Shown in pieces: positions 3,081 through 17,859 of a stretch of 23,238 nucleotides of DNA; the first letter of the stretch is position 1, and every line of letters starts with the position of its first letter. Origin of the DNA: a virus; the IMG/VR virus record IMGVR_UViG_3300035698_004817, positions 1 to 23,238 of that record; one strand, written 5' to 3'. Below the pieces are notes generated by a model that ran no database searches, was not told the DNA's origin, and saw only the letters and a list, made by a program, of their open reading frames with translations. The translations under genes and the position numbers were made by a program.

Positions 3081-3437
3081 ATGAATAAACCAATTAAATA
3101 CACAATCGCTATAGATTTCGATGGAACCGTAGCAGACCACAAATTCCCCGCAATAGGTAAGCTTAAACCTGATGCTAAAGAGATTATCAATCAGTTAGCA
3201 GAAAAGTACGACGTTGTTATCAGCTCGTGTAGATCCTCAGCTCTATTCAATCAAGACACACCTTATGGTGAAATGGGTCAGAAAACAGCAGAAATGAAAG
3301 AGTTTCTCGATAGCAACGGTATTAACTACAGTCGTATTGATATGGGCGATGAAGGTAAGATTGTCGCTGTCGCATACATAGATGACAAGGGGGTTCACTT
3401 CAAAGATTGGAAAAGTATAGGTAAAATGCTCCTATAG
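3081..3437 (+). CDS. HAD-superfamily phosphatase-like protein
   Basis: The 118-aa protein has the HAD motif I as IDFDGT (Asp12 nucleophile and Asp14). VISSCRS near residue 47 fits motif II, and AYIDDKGVHF, with Asp101 and Asp102, fits motif IV. No cap domain is visible, so this is a minimal C0-type HAD fold. Such small HAD proteins occur in many phages and are often labelled hydrolase or nucleotidase; the substrate cannot be read from sequence. A polynucleotide 3'-phosphatase is one possibility, a nucleotide or sugar phosphatase another. It sits alone between the terminase genes, 67 bases after the small subunit and 94 bases before the large one. Confidence 0.8.
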   Translation: MNKPIKYTIAIDFDGTVADHKFPAIGKLKPDAKEIINQLAEKYDVVISSCRSSALFNQDTPYGEMGQKTAEMKEFLDSNGINYSRIDMGDEGKIVAVAYIDDKGVHFKDWKSIGKMLL

Positions 3438-9029: not shown

Positions 9030-10304
9030 ATGGCAACAACAGCAGTAGGTATTAGTGACATCACTAATACATTACATACAGTCCTTATGCCTTTCATAAG
9101 AGACAACTTTCCAAAAAAGACTTTGCTTCTTGATAAGGTGAAGAGAAACGCGAACACTACGTTCATGAATAACCAGTTTTCTGCACCTATTAGAACAAGT
9201 CGTCACGGCGGAGTAAACAACCTGGCCTCCGATAAAGCTAAACTTAATACTGGTTCAGCATCAACAGACCGAGCGTCTGTAGGTGTGAAAATCGTAACAG
9301 GTACTTTCGATATCTCAGACCTTACTATTAAGGCCTCAAAAGATAGTCGTGGTGCAGTAGAAAGTCAGCTTGCATTCCAAGCCAGAACTCTAGCCGATGA
9401 TTACGCACGTAACATCAATAGACAACTGTTTCAGGATAGTTCAGAAATAGTAGGCGAAGTAGCAGGTACAGCTAACGCGTCAGCGGTAGTAGTACACGAA
9501 CCTTCAGCATCAATCGATGATGGTAGAGCTAAAGATAGATTTGGTTCTATCAATGGTGATATCGTTCCTACAAAATACTTATATCCTGGACAAGTAATCG
9601 GAATCGGTACAGCGGCCGCAGCAGTCGGAACAATAGCCTCAGTATCCCCTCGAGCAGGAGGTGGAACTGCCGGTACTATTACTCTAACAGCGGGCATCGC
9701 TCACGCCGCCAATGACGCTATTTACTTGTTAGATGCGGACGGAACTGGTGCAGGAACTTCTGGTATTGATGGTCTCGGAAGAGCTCTCGATGATACTAGT
9801 GGAACCTCACTATATGCAAATGTACCTAGAAGTACATACGCATGGAGTCCCCAAAGAAGTACAGCTCACGAAACACTGACCATTGCGACAATGGAAGATC
9901 AGTATCTTGCAGCGGCAGAATACGCGATGATTGATGACATTTATGCGATTTTCGTAAATAAGAGTCTCTATCGTAAATACGGTGATATCCTCACCGCTAT
10001 GCGTAGAACAGCTAACGCAACAGAGCTTATTGGAGGTTGGACTGGATTAGAATTTGCAGTAGGAGCAGGTAAAGTAGGAGTATTCCTAGATTACATGGTT
10101 CCAGATGGTGAAGTCTTAATTGTAAACTTAGATACTCTCACAATCACTCAGGTTTCTGAGGCAGATTGGTTAGAGGGTGCTAATAAGAGCAATCTTGACA
10201 GAAGAACTGACTACATTACATTCCAAGCCACAATGGTTTGGTTCGTTAATATGTTATGTCTTGCACCAGCGGCAAACGCTAAACTTGTACAGAAAACTAT
10301 TTAA
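9030..10304 (+). CDS. Major capsid protein (HK97-fold, P22 coat-like length)
   Basis: At 424 aa after portal and scaffold, this is the shell-forming protein. The N-terminal part (ISDITNTLHTVLMPFIRDNF, residues 9-28) and the segment FQARTLADDYARNINRQLF (about residues 117-135) look like N-arm and long spine-helix sequence of HK97-like coats. A Gly/Ala/Thr-rich stretch (about residues 190-260) may be an inserted beta domain, as in P22-like coats. The end (WFVNMLCLAPAANAKLVQKTI) suits an A/P-domain strand. The gene has the best translation signal in the window, GGAGGTGA at 9013-9020 with nine bases before ATG. An A/T-only stretch (8984-9000) upstream may hold a promoter but has no clear -35 box. 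No maturation protease is seen nearby. Confidence 0.87.
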   Translation: MATTAVGISDITNTLHTVLMPFIRDNFPKKTLLLDKVKRNANTTFMNNQFSAPIRTSRHGGVNNLASDKAKLNTGSASTDRASVGVKIVTGTFDISDLTIKASKDSRGAVESQLAFQARTLADDYARNINRQLFQDSSEIVGEVAGTANASAVVVHEPSASIDDGRAKDRFGSINGDIVPTKYLYPGQVIGIGTAAAAVGTIASVSPRAGGGTAGTITLTAGIAHAANDAIYLLDADGTGAGTSGIDGLGRALDDTSGTSLYANVPRSTYAWSPQRSTAHETLTIATMEDQYLAAAEYAMIDDIYAIFVNKSLYRKYGDILTAMRRTANATELIGGWTGLEFAVGAGKVGVFLDYMVPDGEVLIVNLDTLTITQVSEADWLEGANKSNLDRRTDYITFQATMVWFVNMLCLAPAANAKLVQKTI

Positions 10305-10314
10305 AAGACTCCGT

Positions 10315-10378
10315 GGTGGCGGTCTAGAGTGTGTTATCTTAGACAAAAAAATAAATCTAAGAGGTTCCACAGGCCACC
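10315..10378 (+). ncRNA. Long interrupted hairpin after the capsid gene
   Basis: Three nested helices are visible: GGTGGC (10315-10320) with GCCACC (10373-10378), TGTG (10330-10333) with CACA (10368-10371), and TCTTAGA (10337-10343) with TCTAAGA (10356-10362), closing an A-rich 12-base loop. No T-run follows, so it is not a standard terminator. It starts ten bases after the capsid stop and lies four bases before the tRNA-like module. It could be a 3' stabiliser of the abundant capsid mRNA or part of one larger RNA. Confidence 0.45.
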
Positions 10379-10382
10379 CATT

Positions 10383-10459
10383 GGACGAGCTTGCCAAGAA
10401 GGTAGAGTGTTGTTTCAACACTTAGGTTGCTCTCGTAGGTGCGAAACCTACCTCGTCCG
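10383..10459 (+). ncRNA. tRNA-like cloverleaf with abnormal anticodon loop
   Basis: Acceptor-like GGACGAG (10383-10389) pairs perfectly with CTCGTCC (10452-10458), followed by one unpaired G (10459). Immediately inside is a correct-geometry T arm, GTAGG/CCTAC (10435-10439, 10447-10451) with the seven-base loop TGCGAAA, close to the tRNA loop pattern. An anticodon-position helix AGTGT/ACACT (10406-10410, 10418-10422) closes the loop TGTTTCA, extendable to seven pairs. A D-arm-like hairpin can form at 10390-10407 (CTTGCC, GGT and GAG). Against a working tRNA: the loop has G at position 33 where U is nearly universal and C at 37, and the D arm is irregular. CCA is not encoded. It is either a decayed tRNA or a tRNA mimic. 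Confidence 0.45.
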
Positions 10460-10460
10460 C

Positions 10461-10850
10461 ATGTTTAATATAAATTGGCAAAGAGACAAGAAGTACTTTA
10501 AAGAAGCAGGAGACGAAGGTTTCTCAGTAGCTAAGAATAAGTATATTGTCGAACTCACCATCAAAAAACACGATGAAAACATCTTACGCAAAGAGAAGTT
10601 CTTTGGCGAAATGTTAGGCGAGCGTGTGGAAGCTGTAGGATCATTCCTAGATAATGACAAAGCTATTTTAGGTGGTAAGGGTATTGCTAAATATCTAGGG
10701 CCTAAGAACCTTGCATTCATGAGAGGTGAAGATATATCGCATAATCTTAAAATGTTATCAAAACCAATCTTCACACCAAAGGAGATTATAGAAGTACAGC
10801 CAACTCTAACTGACTTCTTAGGTAGGAAACAACGTGCCACGAAAAAATAA
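10461..10850 (+). CDS. Hypothetical protein following the capsid gene
   Basis: The 129-aa product starts at ATG 10461; the frame is open upstream to 10329, but that part runs through the structured RNA modules and gives a Cys/Arg-rich peptide unlike real protein. No Shine-Dalgarno precedes it; the tRNA-like fold ends two bases before the start codon, so RNA structure may set its translation. The protein is basic with a beta-rich start (KYIVELTIKKHD), a helical middle and a Lys/Arg tail. I recognise no family. In podoviruses this place can hold head-completion or decoration genes, but nothing in the sequence proves that. Confidence 0.7.
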   Translation: MFNINWQRDKKYFKEAGDEGFSVAKNKYIVELTIKKHDENILRKEKFFGEMLGERVEAVGSFLDNDKAILGGKGIAKYLGPKNLAFMRGEDISHNLKMLSKPIFTPKEIIEVQPTLTDFLGRKQRATKK

Positions 10851-10974
10851 GAACGCTAGAAAAGTCAGTCACAACTATTTAAGCTTTAATAAGGCTTGTA
10901 AGTTATTACAATTGACACCGAGGGAAAAAGTCGTCTTAATAAAAGCATACAAAAACGAAAGTAAAAGGAGGTGA
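10834..10974 (+). CDS. Small very basic protein (46 aa), GTG start
   Basis: A frame from GTG 10834 (17 bases inside the previous gene) runs to TGA 10972-10974, filling what would otherwise be a 131-base gap. The peptide begins MPRKNKNARK and ends in NESKRR, with a helical middle (FNKACKLLQLTPREKVVLIKAY). It is strongly Lys/Arg rich, so nucleic-acid binding is conceivable. The Shine-Dalgarno of the next gene lies in its last codons, which gives it a coupled layout. It could be a chance ORF. The start could also be elsewhere, since no ribosome-binding site is clear. Confidence 0.45.
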   Translation: MPRKNKNARKVSHNYLSFNKACKLLQLTPREKVVLIKAYKNESKRR

Positions 10975-10981
10975 AGATAAT

Positions 10982-11665
10982 ATGGCAACAGGATTAAAAA
11001 GATCAGACCCAGCATTTTATGGTCAAGGTAATGGTACCCCACCAATAGGTCAAGTAACACCAGACGAGCTAGATAGATACGAAATCTACCAAGTCCTAAA
11101 TCCAGGTGCAACAGACGTTTATGGAACAATCGCCGCAGGAACAGTCGATGGTAGTTTTACCATTGGCACAGCCTACTTAGATTATCCTCGTAATGTTGTT
11201 TTAGCCGCACCAGGAGCAAACGATTACGGAGGAAAATCCGTCGTTACAGGAAAAAGCCAATTCGGAGTATCTCAAACAGAAACTATCGAAGTTGGAACTG
11301 CAACAGGAGGAGGAACAGTAGGAGGTACTAAGGTATTCTCAAATCTAGACAGTGCAATATGGTTAACAGCAGGAGGAGATAACTCGGGTACTCCATTACT
11401 TACCACTACTCAAACCACAGCTTTAAATGGTAGATTCGGTCTACCTCTAAAGATAGCATCTACCGCAGACGTGAAGAGAGTTACATGGTTAGATGATGCA
11501 GTAGCGAAACCAAATGGAACACCACAAGCATTAGTGAACGTGGCGAATCATGCCTTTAGCGTACCAGCTACAGGTGCCGCCGCTGATTCTTTTGTAGTCT
11601 GGATTAAGTCAACATATGACGCATCTTCAGAAACTACACCAAGAGTTAGTGACATGAAAATTTAG
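10982..11665 (+). CDS. Beta-rich virion protein, decoration-like
   Basis: The 227-aa product has a strong Shine-Dalgarno AGGAGGTGA (10966-10974) seven bases before ATG 10982, as expected for an abundant protein. It is Gly, Thr, Ala and Val rich with many short beta-like strands, lacks Cys, and contains no enzyme motif. The N-terminus (PAFYGQGNGTPPIG) is flexible-looking. Such proteins close to capsid genes are often head decoration or cement proteins, or neck/tail beta-sandwich proteins. It ends just before the RNA switch and the methyltransferase-glycosyltransferase cassette, so it is also a plausible target for modification, but this is inference. Confidence 0.7.
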   Translation: MATGLKRSDPAFYGQGNGTPPIGQVTPDELDRYEIYQVLNPGATDVYGTIAAGTVDGSFTIGTAYLDYPRNVVLAAPGANDYGGKSVVTGKSQFGVSQTETIEVGTATGGGTVGGTKVFSNLDSAIWLTAGGDNSGTPLLTTTQTTALNGRFGLPLKIASTADVKRVTWLDDAVAKPNGTPQALVNVANHAFSVPATGAAADSFVVWIKSTYDASSETTPRVSDMKI

Positions 11666-11669
11666 AAAT

Positions 11670-11684
11670 ACTTAATTATTAAGT
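11670..11684 (+). terminator. AT-only inverted repeat with short T-rich tail, weak terminator candidate
   Basis: ACTTAAT (11670-11676) and ATTAAGT (11678-11684) form a 7-bp palindrome around one base, followed by GTTTTGTT. With no G-C pairs at its base and a near-zero loop, termination would be weak at best. A DNA-binding site is as likely. Confidence 0.25.
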
Positions 11685-11692
11685 GTTTTGTT

Positions 11693-11740
11693 GGTTGCCC
11701 CCCGTCTAGTCCTTTACGGGGGACAACCTCAAAGGACTAG
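11693..11740 (+). promoter_or_regulatory. Two mutually exclusive hairpins in the 5' leader of the methyltransferase gene
   Basis: Hairpin A pairs 11693-11705 (GGTTG plus CCCCCCGT) with 11716-11728 (ACGGGGGACAACC), 12 of 13 pairs, with a ten-base loop CTAGTCCTTT (11706-11715). That loop is the exact reverse complement of AAAGGACTAG (11731-11740), giving hairpin B with a 15-base loop. The two cannot form together in full. AAAGGA (11731-11736) is the only Shine-Dalgarno-like sequence before ATG 11745. Hairpin A leaves it free and hairpin B hides it. No T-run follows, so the control would be at translation, not termination. The pairing is seen directly; regulation is inferred. Confidence 0.6.
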
Positions 11741-11744
11741 CAAA

Positions 11745-12389
11745 ATGCAAGCAATATATTATGATGACTGGGATGCATCTTTCATCCCCAACATATGCAA
11801 GGAAATATACCTTGAACGTGTTTATGATCCGTTTCTGGTTGGCAAACAGGATTTAATAATTGTCGACGCAGGGGCTAATATTGGAATGTGGTCGATGTAT
11901 GCCGCACCAGTAGCAAAAAAGATATATGCCATTGAACCATCAAAGGCCACACAAAAAATCCTCAAAAAGAACCTCGACCAAATCAAAGACACCGAAATAT
12001 TTTACGTCCCCAAGGCTCTCACGAACGAGAAAGGAACTAAGACATTCTATACGAATCCTACAAATACTACTGCTAATACTCTCATCGGGGGGAATCCTGA
12101 TAATTCTGAAACTGTTGAATGTGTCTCAATAAAAGACTTAATGAACGACTACAAGATTGACCACATAGACTTCTTAAAGCTAGACATTGAAGGCTCAGAG
12201 TTCGAAATATTGGGTGGAAGTGCTTTCAAAGAGATGGCACCAAAGATTGATTGTATCGTAGGTGAAATGCACTCATGGGTACACAGAAATTATAATCAGG
12301 TTAAGGACTCACTAGAACTATGTGGGTATGACGTTACATTCTTTCAACGTGATGCTTCATTATTCAGTGCTGTAAGACATGGAAAATAA
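11745..12389 (+). CDS. FkbM-family SAM-dependent methyltransferase
   Basis: The 214-aa protein has the S-adenosylmethionine site VDAGANIGMWS (residues 40-50), the acidic strand end AIEPSK (62-67), and the family block FLKLDIEGSEFEIL (143-156). FkbM enzymes methylate hydroxyl groups, commonly of sugars in glycans or of natural products. I use ATG 11745; the frame is open further upstream but only through the hairpin leader. The gene leads a cassette with two glycosyltransferases and overlaps the first by 11 bases, so O-methylation of a sugar added by those enzymes is the likely job. Its translation may be controlled by the leader hairpins. All core motifs are present and the length is normal. 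Confidence 0.9.
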   Translation: MQAIYYDDWDASFIPNICKEIYLERVYDPFLVGKQDLIIVDAGANIGMWSMYAAPVAKKIYAIEPSKATQKILKKNLDQIKDTEIFYVPKALTNEKGTKTFYTNPTNTTANTLIGGNPDNSETVECVSIKDLMNDYKIDHIDFLKLDIEGSEFEILGGSAFKEMAPKIDCIVGEMHSWVHRNYNQVKDSLELCGYDVTFFQRDASLFSAVRHGK

Positions 12390-13218
12390 ACTAAGAGATA
12401 TTATAGAAAACGCTACCAAAGCTACAAAGCTAGGTGTGGATCTATCCAACCCACAACCAGAAAAAGAAGAAACCATTTGTGTATTTACTATAGCCGATAA
12501 AAACAACATAGACTATGCGATCAAACTCAAAAATTCATTTGAACATTATCATCCGGACATCGACTTTAAAATTTATGGTCAGGGTGAGTTGGATAAGATT
12601 AAAGACCCACACAAATTTTACCGTGCGACTCCTCTATTTGGCCGTCTACTGTTACGCCAATATGATCTTGTGGTTAAGATTGATGCTGACTCCATCATTC
12701 TTGGTGACCTTTCACACATATTTGAGGACCGAACTTATGAAGTTGGAACTGTTCTCAACAACAACGGAGTAACCCCACATGTAACACTACAAGGTATTCC
12801 ACCTAACTATTATGTTAACTGTGGATTCGTAGCTATGAGAAGCAAAGCATTTGTTGATACTTGGTGGTGGATTTGTAACTCTTTCATGTTCGGTCACTTT
12901 CCATACAAAGAACAAGATATTCTAAACTTAATGGTATACACAGGACCCTGGAATGTTAAGAACTTCGACGCTACAACACCATATTGGCATGGACTAATAG
13001 CTAATGGTCACAGAATGAAAATGAAGGTATCAGAAGACAAACAGGTTTTTGTGGATATCCCATTGAATGACGAAACGCACATGAGAAAATTCGTTAAGGT
13101 TTACCACGCCGCAGGAGGAAATGTATTTTATAAAAAAGGACAAAAGCTCAATTTTAGTCTGTACTTCCCAGAGGATGTAGCAGAACATTTAGATTGGCTC
13201 TCTTCAGATGAAAAATAA
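12379..13218 (+). CDS. GT-A-fold glycosyltransferase, family 8-like
   Basis: The 279-aa protein starts with a beta strand CVFTIADKNNIDYAIKLKNS (residues 34-53) typical of nucleotide-sugar-binding GT-A enzymes. The metal-binding DxD motif is Asp102-Ala-Asp104 in KIDADSIIL. NCGFVAMRS (147-155) fits the acceptor-side block of family 8-like enzymes, and EQD (178-180) a conserved acidic position. No membrane span or signal is present, so it works in the cytosol or associated with the virion assembly site. The donor sugar cannot be predicted. It overlaps the methyltransferase gene and the next glycosyltransferase gene by 11 bases each, so the three are probably made together. Confidence 0.86.
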   Translation: MENKLRDIIENATKATKLGVDLSNPQPEKEETICVFTIADKNNIDYAIKLKNSFEHYHPDIDFKIYGQGELDKIKDPHKFYRATPLFGRLLLRQYDLVVKIDADSIILGDLSHIFEDRTYEVGTVLNNNGVTPHVTLQGIPPNYYVNCGFVAMRSKAFVDTWWWICNSFMFGHFPYKEQDILNLMVYTGPWNVKNFDATTPYWHGLIANGHRMKMKVSEDKQVFVDIPLNDETHMRKFVKVYHAAGGNVFYKKGQKLNFSLYFPEDVAEHLDWLSSDEK

Positions 13219-14392
13219 TAACGAATTACGGATACTTCTAAGTAGCAATGCCCCGTGGGGATTCAGTGGATACTCAAACCAGTCACGGATGATAATGGGA
13301 TCTCTCAAAGCAAACGGATATAAGAATCTAGCTATGTCATGTTTCTATGGACTAGAAGGTGGAATCATTGAATGGGAAGGTATTAAATGTTATCCCAAGT
13401 TAAGTAATGCTTATGGTGAAGACGCTATGGTCGCACATGGCAAAGACTATAAAACCGATGTCACTATTTCATTGCAAGATGTCTGGACCCTAAACCCTCA
13501 AACAATGGCCCAGGTAAAAAATTGGGTTCCTTACGTACCAATTGACTTCTCACCAGTACCTAAAGTTATCTTAGACAAGTTAAATGTAGCTAGTCGCATT
13601 ATTGCAATGAGTGAGTTTGGGCAAAGAGAACTCGCAGACAAAGGGTATGCTTCAACTTTTATTCCACATGGAGTAGACACCAAAGTATTCAAACCTAAAG
13701 ATAAAAAAGCATTGCGTAAAAAGCTAGGAATACCTACAAACATATTCCTAATGGGTATGGTGTCAGCTAACAAAGATAACCCACCTCGTAAATCATTCCA
13801 AAGAGTATTGGATGCTTTCGCAGACTTCTTACCTGAAACCAAAGGTAAAGCTGGAATATTTTTTCACACATTACTGCAACAACAGGGTGGATTCAATATC
13901 ACCAACTATGCAGGATATAAGGGTGTGCAGAAACATATCTATCACTTAGACCCATATCAAACTATGGTTAAAACTAAGCCTGAAGATATCGCTGATTTAA
14001 TGGCTTGTTTCGATGTTCTATTGATGCCATCAACAAATGAAGGTTTTGGAGTACCCGCGATTGAAGCTCAAGCCTGTGGAACACCTGTAATTGTTACAGA
14101 TTGGACCTCTATGCCTGAATTAATCACTGAAAAAACAGGAATCAAGGTCAAACCAGATTACTTAAGATGGTCAGCAATTCAGGGATATATAGCCTTACCA
14201 GATGTTCAAGCTCTAAAGGAAGCTATGTCCACATTGTATAAACTAAAAAAGGATGGTAAATTAGACATAATGGGTAAGGAAGCCAGGAAGCACGCAATAA
14301 AGAAATACGATCACGAGATGTTAGTTCAAACCAAATGGGAACCGTTTTTACAAAAGATAGCAAAGGACACAAAACACAAGGAGGTGGCTTAG
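13208..14392 (+). CDS. GT-B-fold glycosyltransferase, family 4-like
   Basis: At 394 aa this has the two-domain layout of GT-B enzymes. The N-terminal domain begins with LLSSNAPWGFSGYSNQSR (residues 10-27), a Gly-rich acceptor-side loop. The linker region has IPHGVDTKVFKP (152-163), very typical of family 4. The donor-binding block is EGFGVPAIE (278-286), the EX7E motif with both Glu residues, followed by AQACGTPVIVTDW. All expected parts are present and the length is usual. The enzyme retains anomeric configuration in the family. A Shine-Dalgarno for the following virion gene lies in its last codons, so the cassette is embedded in late structural transcription. The substrates are unknown; a virion protein or host envelope glycan are candidates. 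Confidence 0.9.
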   Translation: MKNNNELRILLSSNAPWGFSGYSNQSRMIMGSLKANGYKNLAMSCFYGLEGGIIEWEGIKCYPKLSNAYGEDAMVAHGKDYKTDVTISLQDVWTLNPQTMAQVKNWVPYVPIDFSPVPKVILDKLNVASRIIAMSEFGQRELADKGYASTFIPHGVDTKVFKPKDKKALRKKLGIPTNIFLMGMVSANKDNPPRKSFQRVLDAFADFLPETKGKAGIFFHTLLQQQGGFNITNYAGYKGVQKHIYHLDPYQTMVKTKPEDIADLMACFDVLLMPSTNEGFGVPAIEAQACGTPVIVTDWTSMPELITEKTGIKVKPDYLRWSAIQGYIALPDVQALKEAMSTLYKLKKDGKLDIMGKEARKHAIKKYDHEMLVQTKWEPFLQKIAKDTKHKEVA

Positions 14393-15784: not shown

Positions 15785-15996
15785 TAAAGGTCAAAGACTT
15801 AGTAAGTTTTATACCCAGTATCATAGGGATAACTAAAAACTCTGTCTTTCAAGCGTTAGGAGAGATTTTTAACGTATCTGACGTGTATAATAGAACAACC
15901 ACTTGGGGTGGAAGGGCTGAAGGGCAAGGTGTGGTGCCTCAAGTCGAAAGTACAAGAAATGACACACCAAAAATTAAGGGACTAACTCAAAATTAA
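15781..15996 (+). CDS. Small hypothetical protein (71 aa)
   Basis: The ATG overlaps the preceding TGA, and the stop TAA shares its last base with the next ATG, so three genes are translationally linked. The N-terminal half is partly hydrophobic (LVSFIPSIIGITKNSVFQAL, residues 7-26) but not a clear membrane span; the rest is polar and Gly-rich. The last codons (KGLTQN) include AAGGGA, which works as the Shine-Dalgarno of the following fibre gene, and this stretch is nearly repeated at 17836-17859. Function unknown. Confidence 0.6.
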   Translation: MIKVKDLVSFIPSIIGITKNSVFQALGEIFNVSDVYNRTTTWGGRAEGQGVVPQVESTRNDTPKIKGLTQN

Positions 15997-17820: not shown

Positions 17821-17835
17821 TTGATATATTAACTC

Positions 17836-17859
17836 TAAGGGACTAACTAGAATTTAATG
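17836..17859 (+). repeat. Duplicated gene end and translation start, copy 2 (copy 1 at 15975-15998)
   Basis: TAAGGGACTAACT occurs exactly at 15975-15987 and 17836-17848, each eight bases before ATG. Copy 1 encodes the C-terminus KGLTQN of a gene. Copy 2 lies between genes, but read in the same way it gives KGLTRI followed by TAA. So copy 2 looks like a leftover of a duplicated gene end, still used as a ribosome-binding site. Confidence 0.5.

Follow-up and report, generated by a model that had tools for sequence, protein, structure and literature searches.

In phage T4, the start sites of genes e, soc, 49 and I-TevI are concealed in an RNA helix (review PMC3014915). For gene e and I-TevI, a late promoter is located in the 5' part of that helix, and the short transcripts of gene e omit this part (PMC3014915). 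A different arrangement is found in T4 genes 38 and 25, where a hairpin brings a distant Shine-Dalgarno (SD) sequence to 5 and 11 nt from the AUG (PMC3014915). Pseudoknots have also been described in leaders. That of T4 gene 32 is used by gp32 for autogenous repression (PMC3014915, PMC535899). The E. coli tisB mRNA carries a standby pseudoknot near its 5' end that influences translation of the downstream gene, with the standby region about 100 nt upstream of the sequestered ribosome-binding site (PMC7708055).

In this study, we analysed a 48-nt element of an uncultivated phage in which two helices are built from interleaved strands directly before a translation start. We lean, with modest confidence, towards the view that it is a two-state RNA leader gating the translation of a methyltransferase/glycosyltransferase cassette.

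Layout of the element and its surroundings

The window, i.e. the whole stretch of DNA that was analysed (23,238 bp), corresponds to an entire IMG/VR virus record and contains terminase genes. The element fits completely into the 79-nt gap that separates the stop codon of the preceding gene (11665) from the ATG of the methyltransferase (11745; Table 1). The structural genes in front of it (9030..11665, + strand) are a possible origin of read-through transcripts into the cassette. The 279-aa ORF of the cassette gave no family match. Elsewhere in the window, a small phosphoheptose-isomerase-like gene (3081-3437; phrog_1238, 6.9e-19) is located between the two terminase genes, and a 24-nt inverted repeat (991-1092; 88% complementary, 54 nt spacing) lies between the ORFs 493-975 and 1234-2262.

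Table 1. Positions of the element, its strands and the neighbouring genes in the window.
Feature	Position	Strand	Remarks
Major head protein	9030-10304	+	order shared with most relatives
Small ORF, among the structural genes upstream of the element	starts 10329	+	
Structural-region gene before the methyltransferase	10982-11665	+	stop at 11665
AT-rich stretch after the preceding stop	11666-11692	+	with palindrome ACTTAATTATTAAGT
Strand a	11693-11705	+	5' arm of hairpin A; GGTTGCCCCCCGT
Strand b	11706-11715	+	loop of hairpin A and 5' arm of hairpin B; CTAGTCCTTT
Strand a'	11716-11728	+	3' arm of hairpin A, inside the loop of hairpin B; ACGGGGGACAACC
Strand b'	11731-11740	+	3' arm of hairpin B, with SD-like AAAGGA; AAAGGACTAG
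FkbM-type methyltransferase, first cassette gene	11745-12389	+	PF05050, 6.8e-20; phrog_8156, 1.4e-23
Remaining cassette core: 279-aa ORF and group-1 glycosyltransferase	12379-14392	+	order kept in relatives

The strands follow each other in the order a, b, a', TC, b', CAAA, and then the ATG. A first reading, made from the sequence only, had proposed that the loop of a 12-pair hairpin is the exact complement of the downstream SD strand, and we could confirm this by coordinates and letters. All 10 positions of helix b/b' are paired, AAAGGACTAG being the exact complement of CTAGTCCTTT, and helix a (11693-11728) consists of 12 Watson-Crick pairs and one C.A mismatch (C11698/A11723). Each 10-mer of b/b' is unique in the window, and the pair is among the eight inverted repeats listed for it. 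Dinucleotide-preserving shuffles of 11666-11747 yielded two interleaved helices as stable as these in 2 out of 10,000 cases. When the exact 10-mer pair with its gap was searched in other phages, only two unrelated phages were returned, with long perfect hairpins; a comparison of the window and ten relatives with Rfam gave no match. A further stretch, AAGGGACTAACT, resembles AAAGGACTAG and precedes two other gene starts of the window (15966-15996 and 17827-17857), where interleaved helices were searched and none found.

The free energies of both folds were computed by enforcing each helix in turn over 11683-11774. The A-holding fold reaches -27.6 kcal/mol and the B-holding fold -28.4 kcal/mol, and the two are thus nearly isoenergetic. 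Extra stabilisation of helix B comes from GTTGGTTGC (11690-11698), which pairs with GCAAGCAAT at the gene start. At equilibrium, B would have a slight advantage over A, the two states of the window being close to balance. The duplex of AAAGGA with the anti-SD amounts to -5.3 kcal/mol, and the in-line spacing to the ATG is 7-8 nt.

The linkers of the window measure 0, 0 and 2 nt, for stems of 12 and 10 pairs. With strands a/a' and b/b' interleaved and linkers too short for both helices, the RNA would hold one or the other, and the choice would affect expression of the cassette. In the window, a/a' would expose the SD (ON) and b/b' would cover it (OFF). The assignment "A on, B off" of the earlier reading is thus predicted by the presence of the SD in b'. 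As transcription reaches b' only after a, b and a', we infer that hairpin A is able to form first; the nearly isoenergetic OFF hairpin might then follow later in transcription. The choice of state could be set by folding order, ribosome traffic or an unseen factor. On the + strand of 11500-11800, no promoter-like site was found, the best weak match being GTGACA-19-AATTAT, and this region also gave no GC-rich hairpin followed by a U-run, as expected of an intrinsic terminator.

Recurrence of the layout and placement of start sites

A DNA-level similarity search of a reference phage collection revealed no near relative of the window, and single-protein queries with the methyltransferase or with gene 10982 returned no relatives. 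The head-protein query led to one relative, and profiles made from the head protein and the methyltransferase led to about fifty more (loci of these searches are given below by L numbers). A scan of a bacterial and archaeal genome collection for head-protein relatives found none, and hence gave no prophage or host link. In most relatives, the genes are ordered as head protein, small ORF, homologue of gene 10982, methyltransferase, ORF279 and glycosyltransferase. The content of the cassette varies among them, with additional methyltransferase genes or absent genes.

In 45 loci, we scored the leader in front of the first cassette gene for the interleaved layout a-b-a'-b' and compared it with shuffles of the same leader. 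Two strong interleaved helices, exceeding all 200 shuffles of the own leader, were found at 23 of the 45 cassette starts, where the layout ends 0-17 nt upstream of the first cassette gene. Among other gene starts of the same loci, 1 out of 430 reached the threshold, which had been fixed after inspection of the first leaders. A scan of 604 kb gave 37 sites, 23 of them at a cassette start, and shuffled DNA gives 10. L109 and L111, two lineage members that only a later search brought in, both carry the element, and FkbM leaders outside the lineage lack it, except for the borderline L120 and the odd L171. These site counts, the later members and the leaders from outside the lineage together indicate that the element is tied to one junction in one lineage.

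Approximately half of the lineage has no element, and the head-protein tree requires 13 changes of presence. The element is therefore dispensable. Judging from the sequences compared, it is often gained, lost or replaced. Leader sequences are mostly unalignable outside small groups, and nearly all letters differ between phages. Because the competing layout is kept although the letters differ, a genuine switch that times translation of the methyltransferase is probable.

Several other structures were observed in these loci. Relatives without the element (L005, L006, L008, L015, L067, L072, L087, L099, L101, L102) mostly have a terminator-like hairpin followed by a -10-like box near the ATG; a message from this box would be leaderless or almost leaderless. 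A second structured stretch is often present after the stop of the head-protein gene (L002:7272-7328, L066:6777-6827, L072, L077, L085, L100). It shows a recurring long hairpin like GTTGCGGTT...AACCGCAAC, and interleaved helices were found there at p 0.01 in 7 of 50 loci. In L086 (8569-8643, before the methyltransferase), two separate hairpins have complementary loops, TTTCCGAGG and CCTCGGAA, and could form a kissing pair. In L082 (8590-8656), the direct repeat AAGTGAAGTATT is present at either end of the leader element, leaving the complementary strand with two potential partners.

The earlier reading had seen concealment of the SD as the point of the device. This stands for the window: there, and likewise in L066 and L094, b' contains an SD-like stretch that b/b' would hide. 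As a general rule, complementarity of the loop to the SD was rejected, because eight relatives lack an SD in b' and have their SD-like letters in strand a. The rule of the family appears to be topology and placement relative to the ATG rather than this complementarity. These eight leaders (L013, L073, L021, L023, L090, L076, L109, L111), in which b' touches the AUG, were defined post hoc as a tail-less subgroup. Their b' reads CCTAGC, CCCAAC, CACTTGC and similar, and these leaders have no in-line SD or only a weak one (anti-SD duplexes of 0 to -2.1 kcal/mol). With hairpin b excised, G-rich SD-like letters of strand a lie 2-10 nt from the AUG and reach -4.4 to -10.6 kcal/mol, the value of -4.4 kcal/mol being attained by 22.6% of random positions and 56% of ORF starts. 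In five other leaders (L018, L078, L083, L085, L086), this bridged SD is weak or absent.

A sigma70-like promoter is predicted in the tail-less leaders to end 0-3 nt upstream of strand a, or to overlap it by one, as exemplified by TTGACA-16-TATAAT in L013. The predicted transcription start falls 3-7 nt inside strand a in all eight. For an RNA begun at this position, the balance shifts by 4 to 19 kcal/mol toward b/b', and in L021, L023 and L109 the shift reverses the balance. In leaders outside the subgroup, including the window, predicted starts lie upstream of strand a and are often weak, so that a role of the transcript start would apply to the subgroup only. The first pairs of helix a, absent from own-promoter messages, are still kept in the subgroup, the simplest explanation being that helix a serves read-through messages.

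Transcripts reading through from the head genes would, in the tail-less subgroup, carry the full strand a, fold a/a' and bury the SD. Those from the own promoter would begin inside strand a and could not complete a/a', and hairpin b would then place the SD of strand a beside the AUG, giving a bridged ribosome-binding site. The window does not fit this model cleanly, given the SD in b', a C-rich strand a, the lack of a clear promoter of its own and the C.A mismatch in helix a. A broader proposal, which we put forward only tentatively and regard as rather doubtful, is that of a class of RNA switches conserved in topology and not in sequence, in which interleaved helices read the origin of the transcript, and which would have repeatedly re-evolved or been replaced at a single junction within one lineage of phages.

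Competing explanations for the two helices

The best rival to a translational switch is an attenuator, although we judge it improbable. Here, b/b' would be the intrinsic terminator of the head-gene transcript and a/a' the antiterminator, and the cassette would be expressed through regulated read-through. The junction is indeed a boundary of transcription units, at which a terminator-like hairpin with a U-run, often followed by a promoter, is present in relatives lacking the element. A GC-rich hairpin with a U-run behind it was also seen in several relatives whose helix b is long. In addition, b' enters a U-rich stretch before the AUG in seven members of the lineage (L011, L012, L018, L069, L077, L081, L084). 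However, nothing U-rich follows b' in the window or in the eight tail-less members, where b/b' has 6-10 pairs, and the helices of a-b-a'-b' share no strand, unlike those of classical attenuators. Still lower probability is given to the other three explanations: a co-formed pseudoknot, a hairpin that only stabilises the message, and an element acting at the DNA level.

The layout a-b-a'-b' has the topology of an H-type pseudoknot. If both helices were formed together, the element might serve in ribosome recruitment, in protection of the 5' end or as a repressor site of the phage, comparable to that of T4 gp32. The stems of such pseudoknots can be formed together only within steric limits, which demand loops of sufficient length to span the two stems. 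Four members (L023, L066, L071, L082) have longer loops, with which the helices could co-form. The loops of the window would be too short for this. In about half of the members, the summed linkers measure 0-2 nt (stems range from 6 to 23 pairs, and helix a in these has 6-14 pairs), and full co-formation is sterically implausible there, on general knowledge of pseudoknot geometry. No conserved sequence resembling a protein-binding site was seen among the members. We therefore consider the pseudoknot quite unlikely. The short linkers, the recurrence of the layout (23 of 45 cassette starts, compared with 1 of 430 starts of other genes) and the paired changes in both helices favour the earlier proposal that the two helices at the translation start exclude each other, as they would in the cell under a two-state leader. 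Where helix b is long, several members favour B by 12-22 kcal/mol, so that a/a' could be no more than transient in them.

Selection might act on stable 5' hairpins only, for mRNA stability or insulation, the second complementarity being a by-product of rapid evolution. A single nested hairpin is present at the same position in L009, L074 and L103. Against this, which we hold to be very improbable, stands the interleaved second helix, which lies far above shuffles at the 23 cassette starts and is almost absent elsewhere, as well as compensation in helix a. Compensation was counted in six leaders whose helix b is long (L002, L018, L077, L084, L011, L012). They were aligned by hand and the alignment was verified against the sequences, as automatic alignment shifts the register of helix a. 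In this group, all positions of both helices are paired (100%), and double compensatory changes affect 5 of 7 columns in helix a and 9 of 19 in helix b; covariation in both helices is what the earlier reading had named as support. These counts overstate independence, because L011 is nearly identical to L012, the aligned leaders are related to one another, and their alignment was fitted to the helices. After shuffling of the 3' letters, the paired fraction was reached in 0 of 2000 trials, and the numbers of double changes in 9 (helix a) and 1 (helix b) per 2000.

The strand on which the helices pair better was also compared. Among 24 decided loci, the interleaved-helix score was better on the gene strand in 19 and worse in 5. 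Single G.U pairs flanked by Watson-Crick pairs numbered 33, versus 5 A.C mismatches, and this excess argues that selection acts on the transcript. The window belongs to these five, owing to the C.A mismatch in its helix a. A DNA-level element, with overlapping inverted repeats for regulator binding or cassette exchange, is hardly credible in view of this strand preference and of the lack of a common sequence for protein recognition, even though the cassette varies between relatives and helix a of the window pairs better on the other strand.

Ligand control, which the sequence-only reading had thought conceivable, was rejected. The members have no primary sequence in common and no Rfam match, and no aptamer sequence or structure is shared among them; as they share no primary sequence, a common aptamer is not possible.

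Comparison with described leaders

Like tisB, the loci described here have pseudoknot topology in a 5' leader before the gene, but the helices abut the start codon, unlike those of tisB (PMC7708055). With T4 gene 32 they share a phage leader of pseudoknot topology, and control of translation is what we infer here as well. In contrast to gene 32, no conserved sequence is seen, and the linkers are often too short for co-formation.

The two other T4 devices are closer. As in genes e and soc, the SD lies in a helix, which is b/b' in the window and a/a' in the tail-less relatives, and the predicted promoter of these eight relatives would start the RNA inside the 5' strand, so that part of the helix is lost. 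Unlike in e and soc, the loop here takes part in a competing second helix, the promoters are sigma70-like by sequence and not T4 late promoters, and in the window no promoter starting inside the 5' strand was found. The sequences also diverge almost completely here while the topology stays. As in genes 38 and 25, SD-like letters of the eight relatives lie upstream of a hairpin, b, that ends at the AUG. Different from genes 38 and 25 is that the loop of the bridging hairpin here carries the complement of the SD strand, which would create a competing OFF state; in the window, the SD is in line with the ATG, with no split arrangement. A limited full-text literature search found no report of both T4 devices combined with an anti-SD strand in the bridging loop.

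Searches for regulatory RNAs rely on conserved sequence and nested structure, and covariance-model searches would tend to miss an interleaved layout with almost no common letters. If the filter for transcript origin is true, it would allow a phage to put a separately timed cassette right behind its head genes, as the RNA itself would reject read-through. The window itself falls into neither T4 class, and some relatives, by prediction, fit both. Such a filter would join a hidden start site with an internal promoter and a split ribosome-binding site in one element of 40-60 nt.
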